64,000 nt of DNA from assembly GCA_905182815.1 (NCBI GenBank), contig CAJJCX010000004.1, positions 310,001 through 374,000 on the forward strand, given 5' to 3'. The position numbers and the translations under genes are program-made. Within the stretch, counting starts at the first letter, position 1; each line of letters opens with the position of its first letter. The stretch is from an uncultured Candidatus Thioglobus sp. (lineage in GTDB: Bacteria > Pseudomonadota > Gammaproteobacteria > PS1 > Pseudothioglobaceae). A model generated the notes under the pieces. It searched no databases. It was not told the DNA's origin and saw only the letters and a list, made by a program, of their open reading frames with translations. Positions 40,003-53,744 of this stretch are shown piece after piece.

Positions 40003-40704
40003 ATGATTATTGCACATCGAGGTATTTCATTTGATCTACCAGAAAATTCTTTACCAGCTTTCAATGCCTCTTGGGATAAAGGAGTGGATGGAATAGAAGG
40101 TGATTTTCATCTTACCAAGGATGGCGCCATTGTTTGTATTCATGATGATGATACTCAAAGAGTCTGTAATCAAAAATTAATTGTTAAAGACTCAACCCTT
40201 GAAGAGTTAAAGCAACTCAACTTATCTCATAAAATTTCTAATAATTTAAAAGTAAAAATTCCTACTTTAGCTGAAGTGCTTAACGTGTTGCCTTCTGGTA
40301 AAAAAATATTTATAGAGATAAAGTGCGGTATTGAGATTATAAAGCCCCTAATTAAAGAGCTTTCTCAATCTGAAATACATACCGAGCAAGCTGTGATTAT
40401 TTCATTTGATGAGAGAGTTATTAAGACTTTTAAATCAGCAGCACCTAATTATAAGGCTTACTGGTTATATGCATATGAGCCGAACTATGACTTAAATAAA
40501 ATATTAGATGTACTGAATGATATTAAGGCCGATGGCCTCAGTTCAGATAATGAAAACTCAAAAACTTTAATTGACCGAATTATGGATGCTGGTTTTGAAT
40601 ACCACTCATGGACAATTGATGATATTGATATTGCTAATAAATTGATTAGCTGGAGAGTACAATCTATCACAACAGATAATCCAGGCCAAATCCAAAATGA
40701 GTAA
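40003..40704 (+). CDS. Glycerophosphodiester phosphodiesterase (UgpQ-like)
   Basis: This 233-residue cytoplasmic GDPD-family enzyme has the signature HRGISFDLPENSLPAF at the start and EGDFHLTKDG, then IHDDDTQR, matching the two-motif metal site (H, E, D). The family releases glycerol 3-phosphate from deacylated phospholipids. No signal peptide is present, so it acts on imported diesters (UgpQ-like rather than periplasmic GlpQ). It overlaps the EamA gene by 8 bp. Confidence 0.88.
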   Translation: MIIAHRGISFDLPENSLPAFNASWDKGVDGIEGDFHLTKDGAIVCIHDDDTQRVCNQKLIVKDSTLEELKQLNLSHKISNNLKVKIPTLAEVLNVLPSGKKIFIEIKCGIEIIKPLIKELSQSEIHTEQAVIISFDERVIKTFKSAAPNYKAYWLYAYEPNYDLNKILDVLNDIKADGLSSDNENSKTLIDRIMDAGFEYHSWTIDDIDIANKLISWRVQSITTDNPGQIQNE

Positions 40705-41563
40705 TAAGATATTTTCAAGTGTTTTTACAGCAATTTTATCTGCCTTCTTTTTCTCTCTTGCAGCCACTACTGCTCCCTATTTCTATGGTGTTGGAGGAGG
40801 CGTATTTCTTCTTCTTTCTGTTCGCTATGTTAGTACTTTTATTTTTGCAAGTATTTTAAATAAATCACCTAAGAAAATTAAAAGCAAGGCAACACACATT
40901 AGATTAATACTAATTAGTATTTTTCAAGCAATTTTTATTGCATCGTATATGTATTCAATAAGCTTGATTCCATTAAGTTTAGCCGTAGTAGTGATTTATA
41001 CTTTCCCAATTATTACCTTTTTTGTTAACTCAATACTTAAGAGTAGATCTATTGATTTTTTATCAGCTGCCGCACTTCTTGTGTCATTATTTGGCATTTG
41101 GATTTTAGTTCAAGGAGATTCAAGTGATTGGAATTTATGGGGCGTTTTTTGGGGCCTTATTGCTTCTCTTGCCCAGGTTACTGTAAATATTTTATCTCGC
41201 CATAAAAGTGTAGAATCAGGATGGGGCCTAATTCAATATATTATGGTATTGCCTTCAGTAGTTTTTGTGTTGATATATTTTATAGTCACTTTAGAACCTA
41301 TAGCTTCAGTATCTTCAGAGATGTTACTTTGGAGTATTCTTTCAGCAATGGGGATGACTGGAGGTATTTACTTTTTCTTTAGGTCAATATCAATTATTGG
41401 ACCCGTGCGAACCTCAAATGTGATGTACTTAGAGCCTATTTTTACTATTATTTTAGGTGTAATTCTTCTTCAAGATATGCTGGGCATGAATCAGTGGCTT
41501 GGTATGTTTATTATTTTTACTGCAACAATCTCACTTGAGAGGTGGGGTAAAAAATATAATTAA
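40697..41563 (+). CDS. EamA/DMT-family transporter
   Basis: A 288-residue integral membrane protein with ten predicted helices in two EamA repeats. The second repeat includes the typical DVS-like region PVRTSNVMYLEPIFTIILG near the end. These drug/metabolite transporters export or import small metabolites; the substrate is unknown. It overlaps the upstream phosphodiesterase by 8 bp and is followed by glycerate kinase after 16 bp, suggesting a three-gene unit. Confidence 0.85.
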   Translation: MSNKIFSSVFTAILSAFFFSLAATTAPYFYGVGGGVFLLLSVRYVSTFIFASILNKSPKKIKSKATHIRLILISIFQAIFIASYMYSISLIPLSLAVVVIYTFPIITFFVNSILKSRSIDFLSAAALLVSLFGIWILVQGDSSDWNLWGVFWGLIASLAQVTVNILSRHKSVESGWGLIQYIMVLPSVVFVLIYFIVTLEPIASVSSEMLLWSILSAMGMTGGIYFFFRSISIIGPVRTSNVMYLEPIFTIILGVILLQDMLGMNQWLGMFIIFTATISLERWGKKYN

Positions 41564-41579
41564 GTTAAAGAAGTAAAAT

Positions 41580-42722
41580 ATGAAGATATTAATTGCACCT
41601 GATTCTTTTAAAGAAACCTTAACAGCTTCTGATGCAGCAAATGCAATTGAGGAAGGTTTTTTAGGTATTTTTCCAGATGCTAATATTTTAAAATTACCGA
41701 TTGCTGATGGTGGAGAGGGAACAGTTGATGTCTTAGTTACTGCAACTCAAGGCAAGTATTTTTCAACGAAAGTGTCAGGTCCTCTAGGAGAATATATCAA
41801 TGCCAAGTGGGGTATGCTCGGCAATTCAAAAACAGCAGTAATCGAAATTGCTGAAGCTTGTGGCTTGCACCTAGTTCCACTTAAAAAAAGAAATCCAATG
41901 AATACCTCTAGTTTTGGAGTTGGTGAGCTCATACTTGCTGCAATTGATGAAGGTGCTGAGCATATTATTATTGGTTTAGGAGGAAGTGCAACAAATGATG
42001 GAGGAATGGGTTTTTTAGAGGCAATTGGAATCCAATTTTTAGATTCTTTTGGTAAGGAACTCACTGGAGGTGTAGAAAGTTTAAATACACTTTCAGATAT
42101 TAATATTACTTCTATCGACTCACGCCTCAAAGGAGTCAGTTTTGAGATTGCATGCGATGTGGACAATCCTCTCATTGGACAGCAAGGCGCATCAGTTATT
42201 TTTGGATCTCAAAAAGGTGCTGATGAAAAGATGATTAATCAATTAGATAATCTATTGAGTCATTACTCCAGAATCGCTTCCAGTAAATTAAATAATAACC
42301 TCTCAATGCAGCCAGGGGCAGGTTCAGCAGGCGGCATAGGTTATGGTTTTCTTGCTTTTTTAAAGGCGGATCAAAAAAGTGGGGTACAAATTATTCTTGA
42401 AAAACTTAATTTTGAGCAACATCTATCAACTACAGATCTTGTAATAACAGGCGAAGGTAGGTTTGATAGTCAAAGTCTTAGAGGTAAAGCTCCAATGGGA
42501 GTAATTGATTATGCAAGAAAGCATAAATGCAGTATCTTTGTCATTGCAGGTAGTGCAGAGAATGATGAAATACTGGAAAATAAATATGATATCGACAAGG
42601 TATTTAGTATTATTTCTAATGACCTATCATTTGAACAGTCAATTGCAAATCCCAATGATAGTCTAATGGCTACTGCAAAAAAAGCAGCCCAGCACTATAA
42701 AAAATATTATTTAAATCTTTAA
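41580..42722 (+). CDS. Glycerate kinase (GlxK/GarK type)
   Basis: The 380-residue protein matches type II bacterial glycerate kinase: IAPDSFKETLTASDAANAIE at the start, PIADGGEGTVDVL, IGLGGSATNDGGMG and VITGEGRFDSQSL. The family phosphorylates D-glycerate to 2-phosphoglycerate (GarK/GlxK). Its stop overlaps that of the convergent D-2-hydroxyacid dehydrogenase by 4 bp. Because that enzyme could make glycerate from hydroxypyruvate, the two may act in sequence (inference). Confidence 0.9.
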   Translation: MKILIAPDSFKETLTASDAANAIEEGFLGIFPDANILKLPIADGGEGTVDVLVTATQGKYFSTKVSGPLGEYINAKWGMLGNSKTAVIEIAEACGLHLVPLKKRNPMNTSSFGVGELILAAIDEGAEHIIIGLGGSATNDGGMGFLEAIGIQFLDSFGKELTGGVESLNTLSDINITSIDSRLKGVSFEIACDVDNPLIGQQGASVIFGSQKGADEKMINQLDNLLSHYSRIASSKLNNNLSMQPGAGSAGGIGYGFLAFLKADQKSGVQIILEKLNFEQHLSTTDLVITGEGRFDSQSLRGKAPMGVIDYARKHKCSIFVIAGSAENDEILENKYDIDKVFSIISNDLSFEQSIANPNDSLMATAKKAAQHYKKYYLNL

Positions 42723-43747
42723 TATCCTAGATCAGGGTTTATTAAATTATTTAATTTTTCATCAGCAATGTATCTTTGCATATTCATTAGAACGAGCTCA
42801 AGTGTTAGAGGAATATATGTATCACCATCATCAGCAGATATATGCGGCATAACCATTAAGTTCGGTGTGTCCCATAATATTGAATTTGAAGGGAGTGGCT
42901 CAGGATCAAAAACATCAATAATAGCAGCCTTGATGTGACCAGAATTTAAGTTCTCTACAAGAGCATCATAGTCCATTGTGGCAGCCCTTCCAACATTAAC
43001 AATACCTACTCCTGGCTTCATTAATGATTGACGCCTTTTATCTAATAAATTAAATGTTTCAGTTGTATTCGGTGTAGACATAAAAATGTAATCAGCTGCA
43101 GGGAGTACTTCATCTAATTTATCTACCTTAACCATTTGATCGACGCCTTCTAAAGGCATCCCATGACGACTTACCCCAATTACTTTCATGCCCAATAATT
43201 TGCATTTTTTTGCAGCAGCATGTCCTATATTGCCTGTACCTATAACCAGCAATGTCTTACCTAATATTGGAGATGAATAGAGAGATTCCCAATGCTTGTT
43301 TTGTTGATTTTGAATGATTTCAGGGATATGCGTATGCAGCATTAGCACACTCATTAGACCAAACTCCCCTGCTTTTGCTGAGTGCACGCCCCGATTATTA
43401 ACAACTGAAACGTGTTCTGGCACCCAGTCCATTGGACATAAATGTTCTACCCCTGCACCAATAATATGAATCCATCGAAGTTTAGGCGCAATTTCAGCAA
43501 GATTCTCAGTAGGAAAATCCCAGCACACAAGAACCTCAGCAGTCTTCATGGATTCATAAAAGTTCTCTAAATCCCAATCAAAAATTGGCTCAATTTTGTT
43601 TTTTAAATCAGGGTAGCTTTCAATTGCATTATCAAACCTTTCTTTGGTAATAGCAAAAACACTTTCCCCTTCAATAGTTGGTGGGAATGAATCAGGGTCA
43701 GCATGATTACTCTTAAAATGAACTCTTATTTTATTATCACTTGCCAT
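42719..43747 (-). CDS. D-2-hydroxyacid dehydrogenase (NAD(P)-dependent)
   Basis: A 342-residue member of the D-isomer 2-hydroxyacid dehydrogenase family. The Rossmann motif is VIGTGNIGHAAAKK. The catalytic trio is visible: Arg in NVGRAAT, Glu in VFDPEPLP and His in MPHISADD. Relatives reduce glyoxylate/hydroxypyruvate or interconvert D-lactate and pyruvate; the substrate cannot be told from sequence. It is the second gene after the reverse-strand Rieske oxygenase, with only 6 bp between, so the two are likely a unit. A role downstream of glyoxalase (D-lactate-like product) or upstream of glycerate kinase is possible. Confidence 0.85.
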   Translation of the reverse strand: MASDNKIRVHFKSNHADPDSFPPTIEGESVFAITKERFDNAIESYPDLKNKIEPIFDWDLENFYESMKTAEVLVCWDFPTENLAEIAPKLRWIHIIGAGVEHLCPMDWVPEHVSVVNNRGVHSAKAGEFGLMSVLMLHTHIPEIIQNQQNKHWESLYSSPILGKTLLVIGTGNIGHAAAKKCKLLGMKVIGVSRHGMPLEGVDQMVKVDKLDEVLPAADYIFMSTPNTTETFNLLDKRRQSLMKPGVGIVNVGRAATMDYDALVENLNSGHIKAAIIDVFDPEPLPSNSILWDTPNLMVMPHISADDGDTYIPLTLELVLMNMQRYIADEKLNNLINPDLGY

Positions 43748-43753
43748 AGGTAT

Positions 43754-45124
43754 TTATTTATTGGTATTTGAAGTTTCTCTTGATTGTATTTCTTTTAATT
43801 TTTTCGTAACTATTTTAACTCTCTCTTCTTCAACCTTTCCATCGACTTCAAATTGAATTTGAACGAATTCATGTGCAAGTTTACTTAAGAAGGAATTGTC
43901 TTCCAAATTACTCGCTGGAATATTAAGGACAGAATCACCTCCATAAGTTGGAACTGGCAATCCATTAATGCCACTTGCTAGATATGGTTTTTTGCCAGAG
44001 GCAACAGTTTTTATTTGCTCTCTAATTCTCTGACGCATCATTGCAACTCCTTGATCACTGGGTAATAAATTTTCATTTTTATGGATATTTATTGGACCCA
44101 TACCTTCGCATGCTTCTCGGTCTGCAGGAAATCTTTGACGTTCTTTGTAGGGGCGATCAAAAATTTCACCCTGTTCAATTAGTTCAGGACCCTCTGGAGT
44201 GTTAAATTCCTGTGGATCTCCTCTCTCCCCAAAATTAGCCCAGGCATAGCAGATAGTTGTTTCATCGTCGATTGGAACAACCCATCGTGTAAATGAACTT
44301 CTGCCATAGTGTATTTGCTTTGTTCCATCTGCAGCAAAAGCTGCACCTGCTTGAGTAAAGTTTGGCAAAACAACTTCGTTAATCCTAAACCAAATATTGT
44401 CACCAACTCTCCTGGTATTGCAGCCTAAAATCCAACTATCACGCTCAAAAAAATCAATCTGTCCAACTTCTCCAAAGCCTTCTGAAAACTGTTGTCGACT
44501 CATATTTGAATGAAGGAAAGAGGTGTGAATTGGATCAACTATAGCATCCAAAACCTGAAGCCAGTTGCAATTGAAGGGTGCCTTATAGGGCACCATTTCC
44601 ATATCTTTAAAATTTAGGCTGTCATACATTGGGAATTCAGGTTTTTCATCAATTGGCCCAAGATAGGCAAAAATTAAACCTTTAAATTCATAAGTTGGAT
44701 AGGCGCCAAGTCGAACCCTTTGTTTAATAATGTCAGCTATATGTGCAGGCTGGCCAGGAACATCTAATAATGTTCCATCAATGCCAAAGTGCCATCCATG
44801 GTAGCAACATTGAATTCCTGTTTCTTGACAAATACCAAATTCAAGAGAAGCTTGCCTATGAGGGCATTGTTTATGAACCAATCCTAATTGATTGCTTTTG
44901 TCTCGAAATAGAACAAGTTCTTCACCCAGAATTTTTATTGATACAGGAAGATCATCGAGTTCAGAAGAGATAAAAACTGGCTGCCAGTATCTTCTAAGGT
45001 ATTCACCTGCTGGCGATCCAGGACCAATACGTGTAATTTCATCATCAACATCTTTTGAGTGGATTAATCCATGCCCTGAATATCCTTTCAATTCAACCTC
45101 GAAGTCACTTCCTTTAATGCCCAT
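43754..45124 (-). CDS. Rieske non-haem iron oxygenase alpha subunit (phthalate-dioxygenase-like)
   Basis: This 456-residue protein has a Rieske 2Fe-2S domain with Cys87-x-His89 and Cys106-x-x-His109 (CPHRQA and CCYHGWHF), then a catalytic domain with the non-haem iron motif DAIVDPIHTSFLH. The N-terminal GPGSPAGEYLRRYWQPV is typical of the phthalate 4,5-dioxygenase / O- and N-demethylase group that works without a beta subunit. Its substrate is unknown. The strong AGGAGAGG ribosome site and a 242-bp divergent promoter region lie upstream. No reductase gene is nearby, so electrons must come from elsewhere. Confidence 0.87.
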   Translation of the reverse strand: MGIKGSDFEVELKGYSGHGLIHSKDVDDEITRIGPGSPAGEYLRRYWQPVFISSELDDLPVSIKILGEELVLFRDKSNQLGLVHKQCPHRQASLEFGICQETGIQCCYHGWHFGIDGTLLDVPGQPAHIADIIKQRVRLGAYPTYEFKGLIFAYLGPIDEKPEFPMYDSLNFKDMEMVPYKAPFNCNWLQVLDAIVDPIHTSFLHSNMSRQQFSEGFGEVGQIDFFERDSWILGCNTRRVGDNIWFRINEVVLPNFTQAGAAFAADGTKQIHYGRSSFTRWVVPIDDETTICYAWANFGERGDPQEFNTPEGPELIEQGEIFDRPYKERQRFPADREACEGMGPINIHKNENLLPSDQGVAMMRQRIREQIKTVASGKKPYLASGINGLPVPTYGGDSVLNIPASNLEDNSFLSKLAHEFVQIQFEVDGKVEEERVKIVTKKLKEIQSRETSNTNK

Positions 45125-45212
45125 ATTGCATCCTCTCCTGATTAAAAGTGTTAATGAAAGTTACAAATCATACCAAATTAATACGAATGTTAACAGTAAA
45201 TAATTTTTATGA

Positions 45213-45221
45213 TTATTACAT
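45213..45221. repeat. Half-site copy of the palindrome arm
   Basis: TTATTACAT, identical to the left arm of the palindrome at 45274, begins 61 bp upstream of it, about six helical turns. It could be an auxiliary binding half-site; it could also be chance in AT-rich DNA. Confidence 0.35.
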
Positions 45222-45273
45222 ATTAATTATTTTTAATCGAATAAATAGCTGTATTGGTAACTTATTCTTTAAT

Positions 45274-45294
45274 TTATTACATTTAATGTAATAA
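45274..45294. promoter_or_regulatory. Palindromic operator candidate at the Rieske promoter
   Basis: Perfect 9-bp inverted arms TTATTACAT (45274-45282) and ATGTAATAA (45286-45294) flank a TTA centre. The site overlaps the expected -35 region of the TATAAT at 45302-45307, so a bound regulator would block or recruit polymerase. The Lrp/AsnC gene in the downstream operon is the obvious candidate binder (inference). Confidence 0.6.
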
Positions 45295-45301
45295 TTAGGT
45301 T

Positions 45302-45307
45302 TATAAT
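45302..45307 (+). promoter_or_regulatory. Candidate -10 for the Rieske-gloA-cupin-lrp operon
   Basis: A perfect TATAAT 60 bp upstream of the ATG at 45367. The -35 region coincides with the palindrome at 45274-45294 and has no good consensus match, which fits a regulated promoter. Confidence 0.5.
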
Positions 45308-45366
45308 TTTTCTCATTATCATTTGTTTCATTTATTTTTTGAGGTATTACAATTAATAAACTTGAC

Positions 45367-46458
45367 ATGTCATCTTTTTTTGAGAAAGGCAAGCTTAAGC
45401 ATGGACTGCCCTCATCTGCCTATACTAGTGCTGATTTTTTTCGCACTGAGTGCGATACCGTGTTTACCGATAATTGGGTTTTTGTAGGTTTTGCCCATGA
45501 GCTAAATGAGCCAGGGGATGCAAGACCAATTATGGTTGCTGGTCAGCCAGTAGTCTTAATTAAAAATAATGAAGGAAAAATTTCAGCTTTCCATAATGCA
45601 TGCTCTCATCGATGTTTGAAGTTAGTTGATGAGCCAATGAATGTTGGCAAGATGTTATCTTGCCCCTATCATGCATGGACGTACAGTCTTGATGGTGATC
45701 TTTGTGCTACGCCGTTCTTTGGTGGCAAAGAGCATCAGCCAGAAGGCTTTGAAATGTCAAATCATAATCTTAAATCAATAAAAATAGCTATTTGGCAAGA
45801 TTGGATTTTTATTAATTTAAGTGGCAATGCTGCCAATTTTGAGGATTATGCAGCTCCTCTTATTCAAAATTTTAGTGATATAGATTTTCAAAAAGTGAAG
45901 CCTGTAGCTACTTTGGATTTTGGTGAGATTTCTACGAACTGGAAATTTCTTATGGAAAATTTTATAGAGCCTTACCATGTTCAATTTGTCCATCGAACAA
46001 CAACAAATCAGCCTCTTGAGGATCATTACACAATTGTTGATGGCGTTTGCCTAGGAAGCGCTATTGATCTAGATGATGATGATAAGGTAAAGGGGAGTTT
46101 GTCTGTAAGTTCAAGATACTTAACTCTTTTTCCAAATTTTATAATTGGTCGTTATGCTCCGGATCAAATTGGAGTCTATTTGAATGTTCCAGTTGATGAA
46201 GGTCATACGCACCAAAAAAGGGTTATCTACACCACAGAAGGCGAGAGCGTTTCAATTAAAGAGGTTGATGAAATGAAAAAGCTATGGTGGGATGTCCACA
46301 AAGAAGATCATGCAATTTGTGAAAGGATGCAGCTTGGGAGAGCGTCTCCAGTTTCAAAAGATGGTGGTATGTTGTCACCTCACTGGGAAGATAGTGTTCG
46401 CGCTTTTCAAGAAATGATTGCAGAAGCCGTTACTAACCCACCAAAAAATAATACATAA
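45367..46458 (+). CDS. Rieske non-haem iron oxygenase alpha subunit (choline/betaine-monooxygenase-like)
   Basis: The 363-residue protein has the Rieske motif Cys79-x-His81 and Cys99-x-x-His102 (CSHRC, CPYHAWTYS) and a catalytic iron site with His204 and His209 in ENFIEPYHVQFVH. Size and layout resemble choline monooxygenase / glycine-betaine demethylase (GbcA) relatives, which oxidise N-methyl groups or aromatic rings. The sequence is only distantly like the reverse-strand Rieske protein, so the two are not a duplicate pair. It is first in an operon with gloA, a cupin, an Lrp gene and a GS-like ligase. No reductase (GbcB-like) is adjacent. Substrate unknown. Confidence 0.87.
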   Translation: MSSFFEKGKLKHGLPSSAYTSADFFRTECDTVFTDNWVFVGFAHELNEPGDARPIMVAGQPVVLIKNNEGKISAFHNACSHRCLKLVDEPMNVGKMLSCPYHAWTYSLDGDLCATPFFGGKEHQPEGFEMSNHNLKSIKIAIWQDWIFINLSGNAANFEDYAAPLIQNFSDIDFQKVKPVATLDFGEISTNWKFLMENFIEPYHVQFVHRTTTNQPLEDHYTIVDGVCLGSAIDLDDDDKVKGSLSVSSRYLTLFPNFIIGRYAPDQIGVYLNVPVDEGHTHQKRVIYTTEGESVSIKEVDEMKKLWWDVHKEDHAICERMQLGRASPVSKDGGMLSPHWEDSVRAFQEMIAEAVTNPPKNNT

Positions 46459-46469
46459 AGGAGAATTTA

Positions 46470-46892
46470 ATGACCGATACAAGTTTTAATAGTGACTTTA
46501 GATTAGCACATACGATGATGAGAGTTCTTGACTTAGAAAAGTCACTTCATTTTTATTGTGACATTTTAGGTATGCAAGTGCTAAGGCGAACTGATTACCC
46601 GGGGGGAAGATTTACAAATGCATTTGTAGGTTATGGTCCTGAAATTGAATTTCCTGCACTGGAGCTAACCCATAACTGGGATCAAGAAGAGCACTATGAC
46701 AAAGGTAATGGATGGGGGCACATTTGTATTGAAACGCCAGATGTATACAAAGCTGTTGAAGACCTAGAAGCTGGAGGTGCCAAAATCATTAGTCCAGCTA
46801 AACCTATGAATGCTGGAACTCGAATACTTGCATTTATTGAAGATCCAGATGGATATGTCGTAGAACTTAATGAAAAACTTAACTTAACTTAA
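46470..46892 (+). CDS. gloA: GloA, glyoxalase I (lactoylglutathione lyase)
   Basis: A 140-residue VOC-fold protein closely following GloA: HTMMRVLDLEKSLHFY, LGMQVLR, AFVGYGPE, ELTHNW, GWGHICI and FIEDPDGYVVELNE. The four metal ligands (His, Glu, His, Glu) are all in place. GloA isomerises the hemithioacetal of glutathione with methylglyoxal or another 2-oxoaldehyde. Its position 11 bp after a Rieske oxygenase suggests that a 2-oxoaldehyde is made in this pathway, though a dedicated VOC isomerase with another substrate cannot be ruled out. AAAGGAG site present. Confidence 0.85.
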   Translation: MTDTSFNSDFRLAHTMMRVLDLEKSLHFYCDILGMQVLRRTDYPGGRFTNAFVGYGPEIEFPALELTHNWDQEEHYDKGNGWGHICIETPDVYKAVEDLEAGGAKIISPAKPMNAGTRILAFIEDPDGYVVELNEKLNLT

Positions 46893-46904
46893 AAAGGGAT
46901 AAAA

Positions 46905-47303
46905 ATGAGTAATAAACCACAACTATATAAATTTGGTGACATTGAGCACCGTTTACACACTTTAGAGCCAGGACAAAGCTATATCAAGCCTTTTGTTACT
47001 AGTGCAGTTAGTGATACGATGTGCGGCGGTTTGAATTTTTTAAACCAAGTATCTGTGCCATGGGAGTTAACATGCGATGAGATTATTTATTGTATGGAGG
47101 GGACGTTTAGATTAACGTGTGATGGCGAGTCTTATAACTGCAATCCAGGTGATGTCCTTTATATCCCTAAAGATAACTCTATAGCTTATGAGTGTGATGA
47201 AAAATGCGTAATATTCTATGCTGCTTATCCTCATGACTGGAAGCAACAAGCAGGAATTACTTTTGTGCCTGGAATAGATCCAGAAGACATGCCTCAAAAC
47301 TAG
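46905..47303 (+). CDS. EutQ-like cupin protein
   Basis: This 132-residue single cupin has the layout of EutQ/ethanolamine-associated cupins: GLNFLNQVSVPWELTCDEIIYCMEG, then CNPGDVLYIPKDNSIAYE. The classic metal histidines of cupin motif 1 are replaced (Glu/Asp/Cys), so a metal-dependent enzymatic role is uncertain. EutQ is an acetate kinase-like protein, but many stand-alone homologues have no known function. No other ethanolamine genes are here. It sits between gloA and the Lrp gene, 12 and 7 bp away. Confidence 0.75.
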   Translation: MSNKPQLYKFGDIEHRLHTLEPGQSYIKPFVTSAVSDTMCGGLNFLNQVSVPWELTCDEIIYCMEGTFRLTCDGESYNCNPGDVLYIPKDNSIAYECDEKCVIFYAAYPHDWKQQAGITFVPGIDPEDMPQN

Positions 47304-47310
47304 GATTTAA

Positions 47311-47862
47311 ATGAGTAATTCAAGTAATCGTATAGTGCACCTAAGTCAATCTAATGATAGTAATGATAGCGATCAACTTCCGCGTGTTCCAACTAGGGAT
47401 ACGCTAAAAGATAAATTGAATCAACGAATCATTGATATGCTTGAGATTGATGGACGAAAGCCATTTAACGAAATTGCTAAGTCACTGGAAATCTCTGAAG
47501 GGACTGTTAGGAATCGTGTGAATCGCATGAAAGATGCAGGTGTCTTGCAAATCAAAGCATTGGTAGATCGCTCTGCTATAAATTATGCAACAGATTCGAT
47601 GCTTGGAATAAAAGTTGCTTCAACTTCTAGCCCTACTGAGGTTGCTAAACGTCTTCAAGATTGCAATGAAATAGTCTTTATTATCTGGGTCACAGGTCGA
47701 TATGATCTTTTAGTAGAAATTGCCTCTGAAGGAGATGAGACCCTTACTAGGTTTCTAGATGAACATTGTTTTAATAACGGTGATATAAAGGATGTTGAGG
47801 TAATGAAAGGCCTGGCAACATATAAAAATCAATTTTTATTAAAATCGCAAGAAAAATTATAA
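47311..47862 (+). CDS. Lrp/AsnC-family transcriptional regulator
   Basis: This 183-residue regulator has a Ser/Asn/Asp-rich N-terminal extension (about 30 residues), a winged helix DNA-binding domain (IIDMLEIDGRKPFNEIAKSL, then SEGTVRNRVNRMKDAG) and a C-terminal RAM ligand-binding domain (VASTSSPTEVAKRL...IIWVTGRYDLLVEI). Lrp/AsnC members often sense an amino acid or amine and control neighbouring genes. Here it is embedded in the oxygenase operon, so it is a plausible binder of the palindromes at 45274 and 49388 (inference). Confidence 0.9.
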   Translation: MSNSSNRIVHLSQSNDSNDSDQLPRVPTRDTLKDKLNQRIIDMLEIDGRKPFNEIAKSLEISEGTVRNRVNRMKDAGVLQIKALVDRSAINYATDSMLGIKVASTSSPTEVAKRLQDCNEIVFIIWVTGRYDLLVEIASEGDETLTRFLDEHCFNNGDIKDVEVMKGLATYKNQFLLKSQEKL

Positions 47863-47895
47863 ATATTTAATAAATTCATAAATAAGGAGAAGAAT

Positions 47896-49314
47896 ATGGC
47901 AAAGATTTATCACACAACAATGGCAGATGCCCTGCCATCAAAGAAACGTGTTGCAGAGGAAAAAGCTCGATTAGAAAAAGCAGGCGTAAAGTACATTCTG
48001 TCGTGTTGGATTGACATGCTTGGCCTTCCTAAAACAAAGCCAATTCCTATGAAGGAGTTTGAGGCATTGTGTGCAGGAAAGGGCCCTCAATTTGCGGTTC
48101 ATTCAGTTTCTTTTGTTCCTGAATTAGGGCCTAATGACTCAGATCAAATCCCTGTACCTGATTTAGATAGCTTGGTAATTTGTCCATGGGATAAGACGTG
48201 TGTATGGGTTTTTTCAGATTTATGGTGGGAAGGTAAGCCTTATAACTTGTGCCCTCGTCAAACTCTTAAAAGAGCAGTACAAAAAGCAGATGACGCTGGA
48301 TATAAAGCTTTTTGTGGTATTGAGCCAGAATTTATTGCGATGCGATGGGAAGATGGTCAGCCTGTTAAGGCTTTTGATGATGATCCATTACCAGGTGACG
48401 GCTTACGTCCTCGCAGACAAGCTTTTGGATACGATGTTGAGTATTCAATTGATTCAATGGAATTCCTCAAAGAATTAATTGATACTGTTAATGATTTAGG
48501 CTGGGATATGAAGGATGTGGTTTGTGAGGGCGCCTACTCACAGTTTGAGCTTGACTTCACTTATACAGATATTCTTCAGATGGCAGATCGATTAGTTTTC
48601 TTAAGGGTTCTTCTTAAAGAGGTTGCTAAAAAGTATGGGATGTTTATTACCTTTATGCCAAAGCCAACGATTGGTGATTGGAGGTCTGGAGCGCATATTA
48701 ATTTTAGTATGACGAGTAACTCGGATAACAAAAATGTTTTTGAAGGTAAGGATGGAAAATTCTCTGATACAGCTTATCATGTAGTTGGTGGATTGCTAAA
48801 GCATGCAACAGAAATTACTGCTATTGCTTGTTCAACGGTAAACTCATATAACGGTTTGGTTCCAATAGTTGGTGGATTTGAAGGAGGAGTCTATACATGG
48901 GCGCCGACAACAATGGCCTATGGAGATAATAATCGATCTTGCATGATTCGACTCCCTCAAAACCGGTTTTGTATCGAGAATCGTGCTGCTGACATGTGCA
49001 TGAATCCATACCTATCCTTAGCACTTACAACAGCTGCAGCTTTGGATGGAATTAAGAATAAGATTGATCCAGGTGATCCTTTAAATATAAACTTATATAC
49101 ATTAAGTCCTGAAGAAATGAAGGAAGCAAACATTAAATCTTTACCTCGTAATCTTTTAGAGGCAATTGAGGCTTTAAATGAGGATGATTTTGCAAGAGAA
49201 GTTTTAGGTGATTCAATGCTCCTTCAATTTTTCTCTTATAAGAAAGATGAGTGGGATCGATATCATCAGGCTGTTACAAACTGGGAAGTTGAGGAGTTTT
49301 TAAGGCTCTATTAA
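47896..49314 (+). CDS. Glutamine-synthetase-like ligase, atypical (possible gamma-glutamylamide or other amide ligase)
   Basis: A 472-residue member of the glutamine synthetase superfamily. Visible parts are GIEPEFI and EGAYSQFELDF (metal ligands), GAHINFSM (the GS HxH-like region), NRSCMIRLP (ATP site) and an ENRAADMCMNPY pattern like PuuA/IpuC-type ligases. Oddly, the usual NSYKR motif, whose Arg holds the substrate glutamate, reads NSYNG (Asn319-Gly320). So the acid substrate may not be glutamate, or it may be bound differently. Similar stand-alone ligases accompany Rieske enzymes in aniline (TdnQ/AtdA1) and isopropylamine (IpuC) pathways. It closes the plus-strand oxygenase operon and has an AAGGAG site. 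Confidence 0.8.
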   Translation: MAKIYHTTMADALPSKKRVAEEKARLEKAGVKYILSCWIDMLGLPKTKPIPMKEFEALCAGKGPQFAVHSVSFVPELGPNDSDQIPVPDLDSLVICPWDKTCVWVFSDLWWEGKPYNLCPRQTLKRAVQKADDAGYKAFCGIEPEFIAMRWEDGQPVKAFDDDPLPGDGLRPRRQAFGYDVEYSIDSMEFLKELIDTVNDLGWDMKDVVCEGAYSQFELDFTYTDILQMADRLVFLRVLLKEVAKKYGMFITFMPKPTIGDWRSGAHINFSMTSNSDNKNVFEGKDGKFSDTAYHVVGGLLKHATEITAIACSTVNSYNGLVPIVGGFEGGVYTWAPTTMAYGDNNRSCMIRLPQNRFCIENRAADMCMNPYLSLALTTAAALDGIKNKIDPGDPLNINLYTLSPEEMKEANIKSLPRNLLEAIEALNEDDFAREVLGDSMLLQFFSYKKDEWDRYHQAVTNWEVEEFLRLY

Positions 49315-49387
49315 GCCAGATTTTTTATCAAAAGATAATAGATAAAAGCGTTAATCGTTTTTTTTCATTTAAACTATTGCCCTTGAG

Positions 49388-49404
49388 TTCATGTCATGCA
49401 TGAA
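49388..49404. promoter_or_regulatory. Palindromic operator candidate before mgsA
   Basis: Arms TTCATG (49388-49393) and CATGAA (49399-49404) flank a 5-nt centre, immediately upstream of a perfect -10 at 49414-49419, so they lie over the -35 region. The motif differs from the AT-rich palindrome at 45274, so a different regulator could be involved. Confidence 0.5.
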
Positions 49405-49413
49405 TACAGGGGC

Positions 49414-49419
49414 TATAAT
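49414..49419 (+). promoter_or_regulatory. Candidate -10 element for the mgsABC-gmaS operon
   Basis: A perfect TATAAT in the 122-bp gap after the GS-like gene, 18 bp before ATG 49437. No consensus -35 exists at 17 bp; the palindrome at 49388-49404 occupies that place. This indicates that mgsABC can be transcribed independently of the upstream operon. Confidence 0.5.
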
Positions 49420-49436
49420 AATTTTTTGGAGTTTTT

Positions 49437-50330
49437 ATGTGTGGAATTGTAGGACTTTTTATTAAAAATCAAGCTCTAGAGTCTCAATTAGGTGCGCTTG
49501 TAGCACCAATGCTCAGTGAGATGACTGAGAGAGGGCCAGATAGCGCAGGTATTGCCGTTTATCGTAATCCTCAAGAGAATGGCTGTAAGATTACTGTCCT
49601 TGCTCAGCACCAAGACTTTGATTGGGGTGCTTTAGAGGCTGCAATAAGTAATCATTTTTCTTTAAGAGATATTACAGTAACCCGCAATCATGCAGTTTTA
49701 AGTCTAGATTCTGAAATTGATGATGTTCAAGTTTGGATGAGAGATAACTGGAGTGATCTTAGTATTACAAGTGCAGGAACAAATATTGAGATCTTTAAAG
49801 GTAAAGGTAACCCAGCTGAGTTTATTGATCAGTTTGATATTAAAAGTATGACTGGCACTCACGCACTTGGTCATACCAGAATGGCAACAGAAAGTGCAAT
49901 TACAACAGAGCACTCCCACCCTTTCTCAACAGGCCAAGATTTATGTCTTGTGCATAATGGCTCTTTATCAAACCATAACAGATTACGTGAAACTTTACGA
50001 AAAAAAGGTGTTCATTTCAAAACCGATAATGATAGCGAAGTTGCTGCTGGATATTTGAGCTGGCGCTTAAGTGAGGGGGATGATCTAGATCAAGCCTTGA
50101 ATCATGCCATAGAGGATTTAGATGGATTCTATACCTTTGCAATTGGAACCAGGGATGGTTTTGCAGTTATGCGTGATCCAATTGGTTGTAAGCCAGCAAT
50201 TATGGCAGAAACTGATGATTGGGCTGCGATGTCTTCTGAATATCGTGCTATTGCAACTTTGCCAGGCGCTGAAAATGCGCGCATTTGGGAGCCTGAACCA
50301 ACTCAGATTTATAGCTGGAAAAGGAGTTAA
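49437..50330 (+). CDS. MgsA/GlxB-like class II glutamine amidotransferase subunit
   Basis: The 297-residue protein is a class II (Ntn) glutamine amidotransferase: Cys2 after Met removal (MCGIVGLF) is the nucleophile, with ERGPDSAG, GHTRMAT and LVHNGSLSNH as further site residues. As a stand-alone subunit with the two following genes it matches the three-part N-methylglutamate synthase MgsABC (or the GlxBCD family). In that enzyme it releases methylamine from gamma-glutamylmethylamide, or ammonia from glutamine. It starts the second operon, with its own promoter and palindrome, and mgsB follows by 2 bp. Confidence 0.82.
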   Translation: MCGIVGLFIKNQALESQLGALVAPMLSEMTERGPDSAGIAVYRNPQENGCKITVLAQHQDFDWGALEAAISNHFSLRDITVTRNHAVLSLDSEIDDVQVWMRDNWSDLSITSAGTNIEIFKGKGNPAEFIDQFDIKSMTGTHALGHTRMATESAITTEHSHPFSTGQDLCLVHNGSLSNHNRLRETLRKKGVHFKTDNDSEVAAGYLSWRLSEGDDLDQALNHAIEDLDGFYTFAIGTRDGFAVMRDPIGCKPAIMAETDDWAAMSSEYRAIATLPGAENARIWEPEPTQIYSWKRS

Positions 50331-50332
50331 TA

Positions 50333-51007
50333 ATGACTGAAATTAATTTAGAAAAAAGCACTATTAGAGAGCTTAATGAAGCATTGCAGGCAGGGTCTTC
50401 TGGTGATAAATTTTCTGTAAATAATACTGTTGGAAAGCATGCTCTTTCAGTTGGTCTTACAACAAAGGTAGATGTTGAAATTAATGGACATGTTGGCTAC
50501 TATTGCGCTGGTATGAATCAACAGGCCAATATAATAATTAATGGAAATGCTGGGCCAGGTTTAGCTGAAAATATGATGTCTGGTCAGGTACGTGTTACTG
50601 GAAATGCCTCTCAATATGCTGCTGCAACAGCACATGGTGGACTATTAGTTATTGAGGGAGATTCAAGTTCACGATGTGGAATTTCGATGAAAGGTGTAAA
50701 TATTGTTGTTGGCGGTAATATTGGACATATGAGTGCATTTATGGCGCAATCTGGATGCTTAGTCGTTTGTGGAGATGCTGGAGATGCTCTAGGTGATTCA
50801 ATTTATGAAGCCAAAATTTATGTTCGAGGTAAAGTCAAAAGCCTAGGTACAGATTGTATCGAAAAAGAGATGCGAGATGAGCATAAGAAAGAGCTTCAGC
50901 AATTACTAAGCCAATCAAAAATGAGTCATGGGGTTGAAGAATTTCGACGTTATGGTTCTGCGCGCAAATTATATAATTTTGACATTGACCAAGTCGATGA
51001 CTACTAA
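50333..51007 (+). CDS. MgsB/GlxC-like glutamate synthase alpha C-terminal (GXGXG) subunit
   Basis: This 224-residue protein is a beta-helix of the glutamate synthase C-terminal type, with repeated glycine-rich turns (VEINGHVGYYCAGMN, INGNAGPGLAENMMSG, VTGNASQYAAAT, VGGNIGHMS). In GltB this GXGXG domain is structural, linking the amidotransferase and synthase domains. As a separate chain it corresponds to MgsB (GlxC). It has no catalytic residues of its own. It sits between mgsA and mgsC with 2 and 12 bp spacers. Confidence 0.82.
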   Translation: MTEINLEKSTIRELNEALQAGSSGDKFSVNNTVGKHALSVGLTTKVDVEINGHVGYYCAGMNQQANIIINGNAGPGLAENMMSGQVRVTGNASQYAAATAHGGLLVIEGDSSSRCGISMKGVNIVVGGNIGHMSAFMAQSGCLVVCGDAGDALGDSIYEAKIYVRGKVKSLGTDCIEKEMRDEHKKELQQLLSQSKMSHGVEEFRRYGSARKLYNFDIDQVDDY

Positions 51008-51019
51008 GGAGATCAGATT

Positions 51020-52342
51020 ATGAGCAAAGATAATCCAACATTAATAGAGTCTGCAACTTTTCCTCGGCATGTGATTGCGGAAATTCAGCGTGCAGCTAAA
51101 ACAGGAATTTATGATATTCGTGGATTTGGTGCTAAAAGAGATATTCCTACATTTGACGATTTAGTATTTCTTGGTGCTTCAACTTCTCGCTATCCATTAG
51201 AGGGCTATAGAGAAAAATGCACAACTGAGGTCATTTTAGGTAATAGGTTTGCAAAAAATCCTATTCATTTAAAAACACCAATCACAATTGCAGGCATGAG
51301 CTTTGGCTCCCTTTCAGCTCAAGCCAAAGAATCGCTTGGAAGAGGCGCGACTATAGCAGGCACTAGCACAACTACAGGGGATGGCGGAATGACTCCAGAA
51401 GAAAGAGGGCATTCTAAAACTTTAGTTTACCAATACTTGCCTTCAAGATATGGGATGAATCCAGATGACTTAAGGAAGGCTGATGCAATCGAAATTGTTT
51501 TGGGTCAGGGTGCAAAACCGGGAGGCGGAGGCATGCTATTGGGGCAAAAAATTTCTCCTAGAGTAGCACAAATGCGAAACCTTCCAGAAGGAATAGATCA
51601 GAGATCTGCTTGTCGTCATCCAGATTGGACGGGTCCAGATGATCTTGAAATCAAGATACAGGAATTACGTGAAATAACAAACTGGGAAAAACCGATCTAT
51701 GTCAAAGTTGGAGCGACGCGAGTTTTTTATGATGTCACCCTTGCTGTAAAGGCAGGCGCTGACGTTGTTGTTGTTGATGGCATGCAAGGAGGAACTGCAG
51801 CAACACAAGATGTTTTCATTGAGCACGTTGGAATACCGACGCTTCCAGCAGTTCGAATGGCTGTTGAAGCTCTCCAAGAAATGGATATGCATCGTAAGGT
51901 ACAGCTGATCGTTTCTGGTGGTATTCGAAGTGGGGCAGATGTTGCAAAGGCCTTAGCTTTGGGTGCGGATGCAGTTTCAATAGGTACTGCTGCATTAATT
52001 GCTCTGGGCGACCAAAGCCCTGAATTTGATGATGAATATAAAGAGATAGGTTCAGCAGCAGGTTTTTGGGATGACTATCAGGCGGGAAATGATCCAGCTG
52101 GCATTACGACTCAAGACCCTGAGCTTGCAAAGAGATTAGATCCAATTCTAGGTGGCCGCAGACTTGCGAATTATATAAATGTTCTTACGCTTGAATTGCA
52201 AACATTGGCCCGGGCATGCGGTAAGAGTCATGTGCATAATTTAGAGCCAGAGGATATGGTAGCATTAACTATGGAGGCAGCTGCGATGGCTGGCGTTCCC
52301 CTAGCTGGTACTAATTGGATTCCAGGTAAGGGCGGAATATAA
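51020..52342 (+). CDS. MgsC/GlxD-like FMN-dependent glutamate synthase domain
   Basis: The 440-residue protein is the FMN- and iron-sulfur-type synthase domain of glutamate synthase: ITIAGMSFGSLSAQAKESLG, GDGGMTPEERGHS, GAKPGGGGMLLG and VDGMQGGTAATQD, then SGGIRSGADVAKALALGADAVSIG. In N-methylglutamate synthase it condenses the amine with 2-oxoglutarate and reduces the imine. In the GlxBCD interpretation it would give glutamate. It follows mgsB by 12 bp with a GGAGAT site. Confidence 0.83.
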   Translation: MSKDNPTLIESATFPRHVIAEIQRAAKTGIYDIRGFGAKRDIPTFDDLVFLGASTSRYPLEGYREKCTTEVILGNRFAKNPIHLKTPITIAGMSFGSLSAQAKESLGRGATIAGTSTTTGDGGMTPEERGHSKTLVYQYLPSRYGMNPDDLRKADAIEIVLGQGAKPGGGGMLLGQKISPRVAQMRNLPEGIDQRSACRHPDWTGPDDLEIKIQELREITNWEKPIYVKVGATRVFYDVTLAVKAGADVVVVDGMQGGTAATQDVFIEHVGIPTLPAVRMAVEALQEMDMHRKVQLIVSGGIRSGADVAKALALGADAVSIGTAALIALGDQSPEFDDEYKEIGSAAGFWDDYQAGNDPAGITTQDPELAKRLDPILGGRRLANYINVLTLELQTLARACGKSHVHNLEPEDMVALTMEAAAMAGVPLAGTNWIPGKGGI

Positions 52343-52385
52343 TTACTAATTTAATAAAAATAATAACGAATAAATAGGAGAAATT

Positions 52386-53699
52386 ATGGCCACTAAACTT
52401 AGTAAAGTAGCTGCAGATAAAGGTATTGAATATTTTCTTATTAGCTTTGTAGATCTTTTTGGAAGTTTGCGTTCTAAGTTGGTTCCTGCAAGGGCCATTG
52501 ATGGAATGCAAAAAGATGGAGCGGGTTTTGCAGGATTTGCAGCCTGGTTAGATATGACGCCTGCACATCCCGATATGTTTGCTATTCCAGATCCTGATAG
52601 TCTTATCCAGTTGCCTTGGAAGCCAGAAATTGCTTGGTTAGCCTCAGATTTATGGATGGATGGTAAGCCTGTTGAGGCTTCTCCGCGAGTTGCATTAAAG
52701 AAGCAATTGGCAGAGGCTGAAAAGCAGGGTTTTAGAATGAAAACAGGTGTTGAGTGTGAATATCATCTCATCAATGAAGATGGAACTGATATTGCTGATG
52801 AGAAAGATACTCAAAGTAAACCTTGTTATGATCAGCAAGCCTTAATGCGCCAATATCCAGTTATTAAGCAAATTTGTGACAGCATGATTGAGTTAGGTTG
52901 GGGTCCATATCAAAATGATCACGAAGATGCTAATGGTCAATTTGAAATGAACTGGGATTTTGATGATGCTCTAAAAACTGCTGATCGCCAAGTATTTTTT
53001 AAATTTATGGTGAAATCAATCGCCGAGCTTCATGGCATGCGCGCAACATTTATGCCAAAACCTTTTAGTCATCTTACGGGTAATGGCTGCCACTCTCATG
53101 TCTCAATATGGAATCTAGATGGTTCTCAAAATTTATTTAATGGTGAAAATGATAGCCGAGGTTTAGGATTGTCACCTCTTGCGTATCAGTTTTTAGGTGG
53201 GATTATGCATAGCGCAGACCGCTTAACTGCCATCTTTAACCCAACTGTAAATAGTTATAAACGTATTAATGCTCCAAGAACAGTTTCTGGTGCAACGTGG
53301 TCTCCTAGCTCAATCACTTATGGTGGAAATAATCGTACTCATATGATTCGAGTTCCAGACTCAGGTCGTTTTGAATTACGATTAATGGATGGCGCAGCAA
53401 ATGCTTATTTAATGCAGGCAGCAATACTTGCTTGCGGTCTTGATGGCATTGCTGGCAACCGTGACCCAGGGGATCCACTTGATATAAATATGTATGAGCT
53501 TGGAAAAGACATCGAGGGCTATAAGCAACTGCCGCGTAATTTACTTGATGCGCTTAGATTACTTGAAGATTCAGATGTTCTTAGAGAAAGACTTGGAGAC
53601 AGCATAATTGATGCTTACATAAAATTAAAGCATACAGAGTGGAGTGGTTATGCCTCCCATCTGACTCAATGGGAGAGGGATAATACTTTAGATTGTTAG
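52386..53699 (+). CDS. GmaS/GlnT-type glutamine-synthetase-like ligase
   Basis: A 437-residue GS-superfamily protein, close in length to gamma-glutamylmethylamide synthetase GmaS and to GlnT. Conserved residues are GVECEYH, DANGQFEMNW, GNGCHSHVSIW, NSYKR (Lys292-Arg293), GNNRTHMIRVP and GRFELRLMDGAANAY. The intact NSYKR distinguishes it from the upstream ligase. Directly after mgsABC it would make gamma-glutamylmethylamide from glutamate and methylamine, feeding N-methylglutamate synthase; if the three partners are GlxBCD-like, it could be GlnT. The third component, N-methylglutamate dehydrogenase, is not in this window. A clear AGGAGAAA site lies in the 43-bp gap. Confidence 0.82.
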   Translation: MATKLSKVAADKGIEYFLISFVDLFGSLRSKLVPARAIDGMQKDGAGFAGFAAWLDMTPAHPDMFAIPDPDSLIQLPWKPEIAWLASDLWMDGKPVEASPRVALKKQLAEAEKQGFRMKTGVECEYHLINEDGTDIADEKDTQSKPCYDQQALMRQYPVIKQICDSMIELGWGPYQNDHEDANGQFEMNWDFDDALKTADRQVFFKFMVKSIAELHGMRATFMPKPFSHLTGNGCHSHVSIWNLDGSQNLFNGENDSRGLGLSPLAYQFLGGIMHSADRLTAIFNPTVNSYKRINAPRTVSGATWSPSSITYGGNNRTHMIRVPDSGRFELRLMDGAANAYLMQAAILACGLDGIAGNRDPGDPLDINMYELGKDIEGYKQLPRNLLDALRLLEDSDVLRERLGDSIIDAYIKLKHTEWSGYASHLTQWERDNTLDC

Positions 53700-53733: not shown

Positions 53734-53744
53734 GAAACTTTGTG

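Follow-up and report, generated by a model that had tools for sequence, protein, structure and literature searches.

A widely spread candidate quaternary-amine operon with carnitine links in SUP05, SAR11 and other marine bacteria

A 64,000-nucleotide stretch of the genome of an uncultured Candidatus Thioglobus sp. (contig CAJJCX010000004.1, positions 310,001 to 374,000; hereafter the window, with positions counted from its first letter) contains a cluster of genes for a Rieske oxygenase (RieA), a glyoxalase I (GloA), an EutQ-like cupin, a ligase of the glutamine synthetase (GS) superfamily (GS472) and a MetX-like alpha/beta hydrolase. These genes form a core that recurs in SUP05, SAR11 and SAR324 bacteria and on a Leisingera plasmid. 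The cluster is most likely a real, widely spread quaternary-amine operon with links to carnitine, in which a group Va-like Rieske oxygenase and glyoxalases are combined with an unusual GS-fold ligase and, in SUP05 specifically, with methylamine genes; the substrates proposed for it are predictions from sequence comparison. The labels RieA, RieB, GS472 and 'MetX-like' were coined in this analysis.

Conservation of the cluster across lineages

Open reading frames of the window were assigned to families by profile scores against Pfam and curated models with cut-offs. All of the genes named in a preliminary description of this DNA (42719-53699) are present as open frames, each matching the family named for it; the list ends with the MetX-like hydrolase, which lies just beyond that interval:

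42719..43747, minus strand: D-2-hydroxyacid dehydrogenase (D2HDH), paired with RieB (PF02826, 161.5 bits)
43754..45124, minus strand: Rieske B (RieB), 456 amino acids, predicted LigXa/phthalate type (PF00355, 63.2; LigXa_C, PF19301, 33.1 against a cut-off of 27)
45367..46458, plus strand: Rieske A (RieA), 363 amino acids, predicted quaternary-ammonium group Va type (PF00355, 63.3; PF00848, 86.9)
46470..46892, plus strand: glyoxalase I, GloA (TIGR00068, 137.4 against a cut-off of 120)
46905..47303, plus strand: EutQ-like cupin, core gene (PF06249, 62.5 bits)
47311..47862, plus strand: Lrp/AsnC regulator (PF13404, PF01037)
47896..49314, plus strand: GS472, GS-superfamily ligase without Arg288, Asp177 and Asp50 (PF00120, 308 bits)
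49437..50330, plus strand: mgsA-like class II amidotransferase, SUP05-only insert (PF13522, 72.5 bits)
50333..51007, plus strand: mgsB-like GXGXG protein, SUP05-only insert (PF01493, 47.5 bits)
51020..52342, plus strand: mgsC-like FMN glutamate-synthase domain, SUP05-only insert (PF01645, 307.8 bits)
52386..53699, plus strand: gmaS, gamma-glutamylmethylamide synthetase (TIGR03105, 675 against a cut-off of 469.6)
53742..54755, plus strand: MetX-like alpha/beta hydrolase, core gene (NF005757, 443.5 against a cut-off of 332)

Eleven co-directional genes span 45367-55099, from RieA to a gene for a tRNA-binding-domain protein, with intergenic gaps of 2-122 bases. RieB and D2HDH are transcribed in the opposite direction to this run, out of a common intergenic stretch of ~240 bases. 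The cluster exceeds the interval first described on its right side, where the MetX-like hydrolase belongs to the core.

Gene order was compared across 35 loci with a RieA of at least 48% identity, 19 of SUP05 type and 16 others; L070-L075 (27-31% identity) were excluded from the counts. RieA, GloA and the cupin are contiguous in 19/19 SUP05-type loci, and RieA and GloA are adjacent in 12 of the 16 other loci; thus, the packing of these genes is not a matter of chance. The SUP05-type loci further contain GS472 (18 loci, rearranged in L048), RieB (16), D2HDH (15), the MetX-like gene (16), gmaS (15) and mgsC (9), some of the absences being contig ends. Among the 16 other loci, GloA and the cupin are adjacent in eight, GS472 is present in four and RieB, D2HDH and the MetX-like gene in three each, while gmaS and mgsC (at least 44% identity) were found in none. 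RieA is linked to GS472 in a SAR324 metagenome-assembled genome (MAG; L062), a Deltaproteobacteria MAG (L063), a gammaproteobacterial MAG (L064) and a Pelagibacteraceae contig (L052). From neighbours with a like layout, L063 would also belong to SAR324. A Leisingera plasmid carries RieA-GloA-cupin-GS472 together with an ABC transporter and the MetX-like hydrolase, with a glutamate-synthase-family gene annotated further on; the GloA of Leisingera scores 147.8 against TIGR00068 (cut-off 120). RieB, D2HDH, GS472 and the hydrolase also occur on two Rhodobacteraceae plasmids, where the fetched stretches contain no RieA. On the Rhodobacteraceae plasmids L034, L076 and L077, agmatinase-type genes are found in the vicinity of GS472 and the hydrolase; two of these plasmids also encode a guanidino-oxoacid decarboxylase, and all three share an NMT1-type ABC transporter that is mutually ~80% identical. 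A gene for a thiamine pyrophosphate (TPP) enzyme and an aldehyde dehydrogenase gene also occur near GS472 on Rhodobacteraceae plasmids.

In the order of the window genome (1.32 Mb, 76.8% complete), RieA at 72% identity or more was found in 24 of 83 genomes: 23/29 in the window genus, 1/2 in a second genus and 0/52 in the rest. By their record names, relatives at 72-98% identity are mostly from the SUP05 cluster, Candidatus Thioglobus and uncultured gammaproteobacteria. The SUP05 relatives L039 and L040 have an in-frame TAA within the aligned RieA, the open frame falling 12 bases short of the match end. In the SAR11 order, 19 of 397 sampled genomes (a count that includes the centre genome) were found to encode RieA, and 17 of the loci were fetched. 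RieA-GloA-cupin is contiguous in 17/17 of these loci and the full RieA-GloA-cupin-GS472-MetX run in 15/17, and the cupin is 89-100% identical in SUP05 and SAR11 loci.

The preliminary description had proposed a single pathway for the whole interval. One part of that proposal stands, as RieA and GS472 cannot be considered unrelated modules when their linkage is kept in SUP05, SAR11, SAR324, the Deltaproteobacteria and gammaproteobacterial MAGs and Leisingera. The other part does not, as neither RieB/D2HDH nor gmaS/mgsABC is a constant member. D2HDH adjoins RieB wherever both are seen. The pair is absent from the SAR11 loci L156, L157, L159 and L168, and in the first three of these a BKACE gene lies 461-463 bases from RieA; RieB and D2HDH thus form a removable cassette. 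Of the 17 SUP05-type loci that could be judged, eight (L040, L045, L046, L048-L051, L060) have no mgsABC genes, and a second mgsABC set is present on another contig of the window genome, so that the set in the window appears dispensable. A place for mgsABC in the core was rejected on these grounds, together with the absence of mgsC, at 44% identity or more, from the 16 loci outside SUP05.

The genes flanking the cluster are conserved at the level of SUP05 and are as follows:

40003..40704, plus strand: glycerophosphodiester phosphodiesterase (GDPD), SUP05-level neighbour (PF03009, 122.3 bits; syntenic in SUP05 loci)
40697..41563, plus strand: EamA/DMT transporter, SUP05-level neighbour (PF00892, 64.1 bits)
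41580..42722, plus strand: glycerate kinase, SUP05-level neighbour (PF02595, 474.5 bits)
54764..55099, plus strand: tRNA-binding-domain (CsaA-like) protein, SUP05-level neighbour (PF01588, 52.7 bits)

The first three (40003-42722) form the left flank in many SUP05 loci, and the EamA/DMT gene is immediately upstream of RieA in L048, L050, L051 and L060. GDPD is a possible source of choline via glycerophosphocholine. By eye, positions 55373-63630 hold a polyol/sugar uptake cluster with an ABC transporter, a short-chain dehydrogenase, an AraC regulator, a mannitol-dehydrogenase-like protein and a sugar kinase.

Residue signatures of the oxygenases and ligases

The RieA alignment contained 24 of 36 sequences (the window copy and L035-L069); L039, with an internal stop, and L069, with a broken frame, were left out, and the rest were dropped to limit near-copies. 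The 2-His-1-Asp ligands are invariant in the 24 sequences, the bridging Glu201 (position of CntA E205) is present in 24/24 and residue 199 (position of CntA Tyr203) is aromatic in 24/24 (22 Phe, 2 Tyr). According to excerpts of PMC7948474, an aromatic residue at CntA Y203 separates group Va enzymes (acting on carnitine, choline and benzalkonium) from the demethylating group Vb, which has Asn. By these residues RieA carries the quaternary-ammonium signatures of group Va, and we infer that it acts on a quaternary ammonium substrate. The aromatic marker alone does not name that substrate, since two RieA paralogues elsewhere in the window genome share it. A predicted fold of RieA (predicted local distance difference test score 86.9) gave CntA at all of Foldseek ranks 1-13 (9.1e-26), with the best other family at 1.1e-22. 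RieB, in turn, has a bridging Asp197 and 7fhr as its nearest solved chain, and is assigned to the LigXa/phthalate type. The earlier view of two distinct Rieske alpha subunits is thus borne out at the subfamily level.

For the ligase, 42 GS472 sequences (including the window copy and L080, a repeat of L052) were aligned with E. coli GlnA and PuuA, 16 gmaS sequences and GS491, a further GS-like ligase of the window genome. The ATP, Mg and substrate residues E122, E124, E179, E186, H235, R312, R317, E325 and R327 are kept in 42/42 GS472. Arg288, which presumably binds the alpha-carboxylate of glutamate as in GS structures, is replaced by Gly in 42/42, and is Arg in GlnA, PuuA, GS491 and all 16 gmaS. 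Similarly, Asp177, the residue deprotonating methylamine in GmaS, is Val in 42/42 GS472 and Asp in the window gmaS and 15/15 other gmaS; Asn188 is replaced by Asp, and the ammonium Asp50 of GlnA by Ala, in 42/42. Excerpts of PMC7948447 place Arg288 among the residues holding a glutamate analogue in RhGmaS. Against the GmaS model TIGR03105, GS472 scores 379.9, under the cut-off of 469.6. Loss of Asp177 and Asp50 was rejected as an argument against glutamate, since the E. coli glutamate ligase PuuA also lacks both, and the case against glutamate use thus rests on Arg288. As this residue is lost in 42/42, a gamma-glutamyl conjugate is not the likely product; GS472 probably is an active enzyme that does not use glutamate, and a role as gamma-glutamyl ligase is unlikely. 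The idea that the two ligases of the window are a gamma-glutamyl ligase pair was rejected on the same residues, and a Glu-flap glutamate kept in GS472 was discarded as alignment-dependent. At a threshold of 1e-150, a phylum-wide search of 398 genomes returned only the window's own copy of GS472.

The MetX-like gene starts 3 bases past GS472 in 14 of the 15 SAR11 loci with both genes and overlaps it by 1 base in the remaining one. Relatives of the hydrolase at 50-52% identity lie within 7 kb of amidases/formamidases on 5/5 plasmids examined, out of 72 records that match the protein. Carnitine and gamma-butyrobetaine are shaped like glutamate minus its alpha-carboxylate, a suggestive match with the other genes of the operon. 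A bolder proposal, which we consider improbable as a whole, is that GS472 represents a new branch of the GS superfamily activating with ATP a betaine carboxylate of gamma-aminobutyrate shape and with a quaternary N (carnitine, gamma-butyrobetaine or 3-dehydrocarnitine), that the MetX-like hydrolase would free the product, and that RieA would add a route from carnitine to trimethylamine via a glyoxalase shunt in SAR11, SUP05 and SAR324.

The gmaS of the window has RhGmaS (7cql, 637 bits) as its best solved relative and keeps Asp177, Glu186, Arg288 and Arg312; by score and residues it is assigned as a true GmaS. The adjoining amidotransferase, GXGXG and Glu_synthase proteins stand in mgsABC order next to gmaS and match the domain layout of MgsABC, with N-methylglutamate synthesis as their putative role. 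The second mgsABC set of the genome occurs with GS491, which is 29% identical to the window gmaS and keeps the GmaS residues Asp177 and Arg288, beside a Tdm-type gene (DUF1989 + GCV_T). This stretch, at ~177-201 kb of contig C1 of the window genome G000 (L107, L093, L108) and outside the window, unites GS491, mgsABC, the Tdm-type protein and a Rieske paralogue, and by eye also a betaine-type ABC transporter and a sarcosine-oxidase-like set. In it (L093:10762-13376), a sarcosine-oxidase-like flavin adenine dinucleotide (FAD) subunit is in broken frames; in L109, a relative, it is a single frame of 448 amino acids, so that either gene disruption or faulty assembly would account for the break.

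Carnitine links, a proposed pathway and its rivals

In 8 of the 17 SAR11 loci, the core run ends with a carnitine-dehydrogenase-like gene on one strand, and a BKACE gene lies upstream on the same strand. The dehydrogenase gene follows MetX by 1-2 bases in 8/8 such loci, and intergenic gaps in the eight runs are mostly -8 to 23 (extremes -38 and 186). The eight dehydrogenases are 81-86% identical to the protein of L052, a further SAR11 contig, which likewise has both this gene and BKACE. In L157, the one SAR11 locus annotated more widely, a choline dehydrogenase (740.9 against a cut-off of 605), a TauD-family dioxygenase, a class II aldolase, a thioesterase and a betaine/choline ABC transporter were also found. 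A 102-amino-acid ABM-domain (antibiotic-biosynthesis-monooxygenase-like) protein is encoded between BKACE and RieA in this locus (L157:8910-9218), with frames of the same length at this position in several other SAR11 loci. On the Leisingera plasmid, a carnitine dehydrogenase is annotated ~14 kb away from the RieA locus. A 3-hydroxyacyl-CoA dehydrogenase beside RieA in L061 was rejected as a carnitine dehydrogenase, being FadB-like.

The window genome itself encodes a full-length carnitine 3-dehydrogenase (492 amino acids; NF005716, 703.8 against a cut-off of 592), which adjoins a BKACE gene ~280 kb from the cluster. Homologues of this dehydrogenase occur in 10/10 SUP05 genomes tested and in 26 of the 83 genomes of the order, all within the two RieA-bearing genera; as these make up a single clade, the co-occurrence is by itself weak evidence.

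Further information comes from the Oceanospirillales. In 4/4 loci of this group (L055, L056, L057, L069), a BCCT transporter is divergent from a run of RieA, GloA, the cupin, a CntB-like reductase and GloB, the last over its curated cut-off in all four; in L069, the genes for RieA, the BCCT transporter and the reductase are all fragmented. Over 322 columns, the reductase of L055 shares 42% identity with E. coli YeaX, which serves as the reductase of carnitine monooxygenase. In E. coli, the transporter YeaV, which we take to be of the BCCT type, the oxygenase YeaW, YeaX and a D-malate dehydrogenase are encoded side by side. The order RieA-GloA-cupin-reductase-GloB is most simply read as that of a Rieske enzyme that would release a 2-oxoaldehyde as its non-amine product, and such a product would in turn imply a quaternary alpha-aminoketone as substrate. 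With carnitine-dehydrogenase-like proteins, BKACE, BCCT and CntB-like reductases among the neighbours of the core, and with choline dehydrogenase and the betaine/choline transporter in L157, the amine theme of the preliminary description holds and points to quaternary ammonium compounds.

The explanation we favour is that the core genes form an operon for the catabolism of quaternary ammonium compounds, connected with the breakdown of carnitine, with RieA acting on a carnitine-derived aminoketone. Taken whole, it seems about equally likely to be right or wrong. Its quaternary-amine and carnitine link is a good deal safer and probably correct, and the specific aminoketone reaction is tentative, being less likely than not. 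In this proposal, RieA would hydroxylate the N-CH2 carbon of the aminoketone, the best candidate being trimethylaminoacetone, with 3-dehydrocarnitine itself also possible. Trimethylaminoacetone forms when 3-dehydrocarnitine loses CO2. The hydroxylated product would split into trimethylamine and a 2-oxoaldehyde (methylglyoxal), which GloA with GloB would convert to a D-2-hydroxyacid (D-lactate), and D-lactate would be oxidized by D2HDH or a respiratory dehydrogenase. By the Tdm-type pathway, encoded in another part of the genome, trimethylamine would be turned into methylamine and then be taken on by gmaS and mgsABC; such a route would explain the retention of gmaS beside the core in SUP05. GS472 would probably activate an acid other than glutamate, the MetX-like hydrolase may split an ester, a thioester or an amide arising in that pathway, and RieB with D2HDH could be a side cassette for a related compound. 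Excerpts of PMC12482172 and PMC5979481 report trimethylaminoacetone as a product of carnitine, and those of PMC12482172 describe its increase on carnitine in Citrobacter.

A considerable number of observations, however, weigh against this explanation. The pathway has no defined step for GS472 or the cupin. With respect to RieA, the Cys-X-X-Cys pair of CntA is absent, Pro202 and Val205 standing there in 24/24; this pair is unique to some group V members and so does not define the group (PMC10952381). Further, the Z-score of the predicted RieA fold with CntA (36.0) is little above that with naphthalene dioxygenase (34.6), and RieA scores 140 against the glycine-betaine monooxygenase model, whose cut-off is 670. 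In the window genome, at its 76.8% completeness, neither a CntB-like reductase at 1e-15 nor a GloB over its cut-off (best 120.5 against 200.8) was found, and L053, L064 and L065 have RieA with no GloA match. The carnitine linkage is likewise incomplete. The L052 dehydrogenase, the only SAR11 copy scored, has L-carnitine dehydrogenase (NF005471) as its best family at 346.9, under the cut-off of 414, and the BKACE proteins exceed no NCBIfam substrate-model cut-off, matching only the Pfam BKACE family (L052). The dehydrogenase-like gene and BKACE are missing from 9 of the 17 fetched SAR11 loci: L162-L168 have the core, and L169 and L170 only RieA-GloA-cupin. Neither gene was seen among those adjacent to RieA in 18 other loci (L034, L053-L069). 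Where genomes of the order encode RieA as well as carnitine dehydrogenase (20 genomes), no contig has the two closer together than 280 kb. A search at 1e-20 gave no match to carnitine dehydrogenase in the genomes of L055 and L056, and genome G012 has the dehydrogenase without RieA. Neighbours on three Rhodobacteraceae plasmids include guanidine-type genes. Finally, work cited in excerpts of PMC12482172 takes trimethylaminoacetone to glycine betaine, not trimethylamine, and the Arctic SAR11 island of PMC12421898 has a lactoylglutathione lyase, with the word 'Rieske' absent from the main text of that report.

As an observation apart from these, the SAR11 locus L163 (13986-19689), one of those with no carnitine genes, has after its core a luciferase-like monooxygenase, a TPP enzyme, an AA_synth protein, an alpha/beta hydrolase and an aldehyde dehydrogenase.

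Some of the same observations suggest that RieA may act on an imported quaternary amine such as betaine aldehyde or choline rather than on a product of carnitine. Betaine aldehyde would then give trimethylamine and glyoxal, and the glyoxalases would convert glyoxal to glycolate, feeding the glycerate kinase side. The BCCT gene beside RieA in the four Oceanospirillales loci, two of whose genomes have no carnitine dehydrogenase match, is consistent with such a role, as are GDPD and glycerate kinase at the flank of the SUP05 cluster, the choline genes of L157 and a gene annotated as 2-hydroxy-3-oxopropionate reductase after D2HDH on two plasmids. However, the gene joined to the SAR11 run in 8/8 loci is carnitine-dehydrogenase-like, and betaine aldehyde is usually removed by its own dedicated dehydrogenase; we regard this alternative as rather unlikely. 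The recently reported pathway for homarine (N-methylpicolinate), or one related to it, is far less probable still. The homarine pathway involves the N-methylglutamate dehydrogenase Mgd (excerpts of PMC13390433) and RieB is an aromatic-type oxygenase, yet the carnitine and BCCT linkage of the core and the group Va signature of RieA are ill-suited to an aromatic ring.

The remaining alternatives concern the methylamine genes. In the preliminary description, the two GS-like ligases were proposed to make gamma-glutamyl conjugates, which the Rieske enzymes would oxidize and MgsABC would process. In the window, gmaS and mgsABC are indeed intact and co-directional with the core, gmaS is kept in 15/19 SUP05-type loci, the amidases/formamidases near MetX-like relatives would suit amide hydrolysis, and the Asp177 and Asp50 losses shared with PuuA do not speak against glutamate. 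For the core, however, this logic fails on the absence from GS472 of Arg288, which PuuA and every other control retain, and on the restriction of gmaS and mgsC (at 44% identity or more) to the SUP05-type loci among those compared, where mgsABC is often missing; the proposal appears distinctly improbable. It is somewhat more conceivable, if still on the unlikely side, that the core, acting on quaternary amines, and an independent methylamine module (gmaS, mgsABC) are neighbours in SUP05 for no other reason than that each deals with methylated amines. The confinement of these genes to SUP05-type loci among those compared fits such an arrangement, and the second GS/mgsABC set with Tdm shows that such modules occur as units, whereas the persistence of gmaS beside the core where mgsABC has been lost argues against it. 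Since the core itself is one unit, this alternative touches the SUP05 insert only and is compatible with the carnitine-derived aminoketone explanation of the core.

Comparison with known systems and implications

A close parallel to RieA is the carnitine monooxygenase CntAB (YeaWX), found with YeaV and the D-malate dehydrogenase DmlA. Both systems have a group V Rieske oxygenase with the bridging Glu and an aromatic residue at position 203; the Oceanospirillales version also shares a CntB-type reductase and a BCCT transporter with CntAB, and enzymes acting on the other, non-amine part of the substrate are encoded nearby. In contrast to CntA, RieA is without the Cys pair, is only ~25% identical to YeaW and is followed by GloA, the cupin and GloB, which would imply a 2-oxoaldehyde rather than malic semialdehyde. 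In aniline-type systems (TdnQ/TdnT), a GS-like ligase and a class II amidotransferase accompany a Rieske dioxygenase, and the window has all three kinds of protein in one cluster; its amidotransferase, however, belongs to mgsABC, outside the conserved core, and the RieA signatures are not those of ring-hydroxylating enzymes. The methylamine pathway of GmaS and MgsABC is represented by a predicted true GmaS and by mgsABC genes of known domain layout, but these are an insert beside the core and GS472 is not a GmaS. With the Pseudomonas-type route from carnitine to glycine betaine, the window genome shares carnitine dehydrogenase and BKACE, relatives of which are joined to the core in SAR11; that route, as described in excerpts of PMC12482172, has no Rieske, glyoxalase or GS-like enzyme.

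A glycine betaine island of Arctic SAR11 has, according to excerpts of PMC12421898, carnitine dehydrogenase, BKACE, gamma-butyrobetaine dioxygenase, choline dehydrogenase, class II aldolase, thioesterase, lactoylglutathione lyase, GDPD and a DMT transporter, and the gene content of L157 is much like it. Unlike the loci described here, no GS-like ligase or MetX-like hydrolase is named in those excerpts. Among the titles and abstract openings listed from open-licence PMC literature on Rieske-glyoxalase-carnitine combinations, on SUP05 with methylated amines or carnitine, and on Rieske enzymes with gamma-glutamyl ligases, no description of the gene set was found, in agreement with the preliminary description.

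If the proposed pathway is true, some abundant ocean bacteria (19/397 SAR11-order genomes and 23/29 genomes of the window genus, by presence of RieA) would convert carnitine-type osmolytes aerobically to methylamines, gases of relevance to climate, by an undescribed route that includes a glyoxalase step. In the four Oceanospirillales operons, including that of Neptunomonas marina, oxygenase, reductase and glyoxalases come as one set, which allows this chemistry to be tried outside hosts that are hard to grow. GS472 would further add to the GS superfamily a ligase that does not use glutamate, and with it a testable claim on the change of substrate in that fold.

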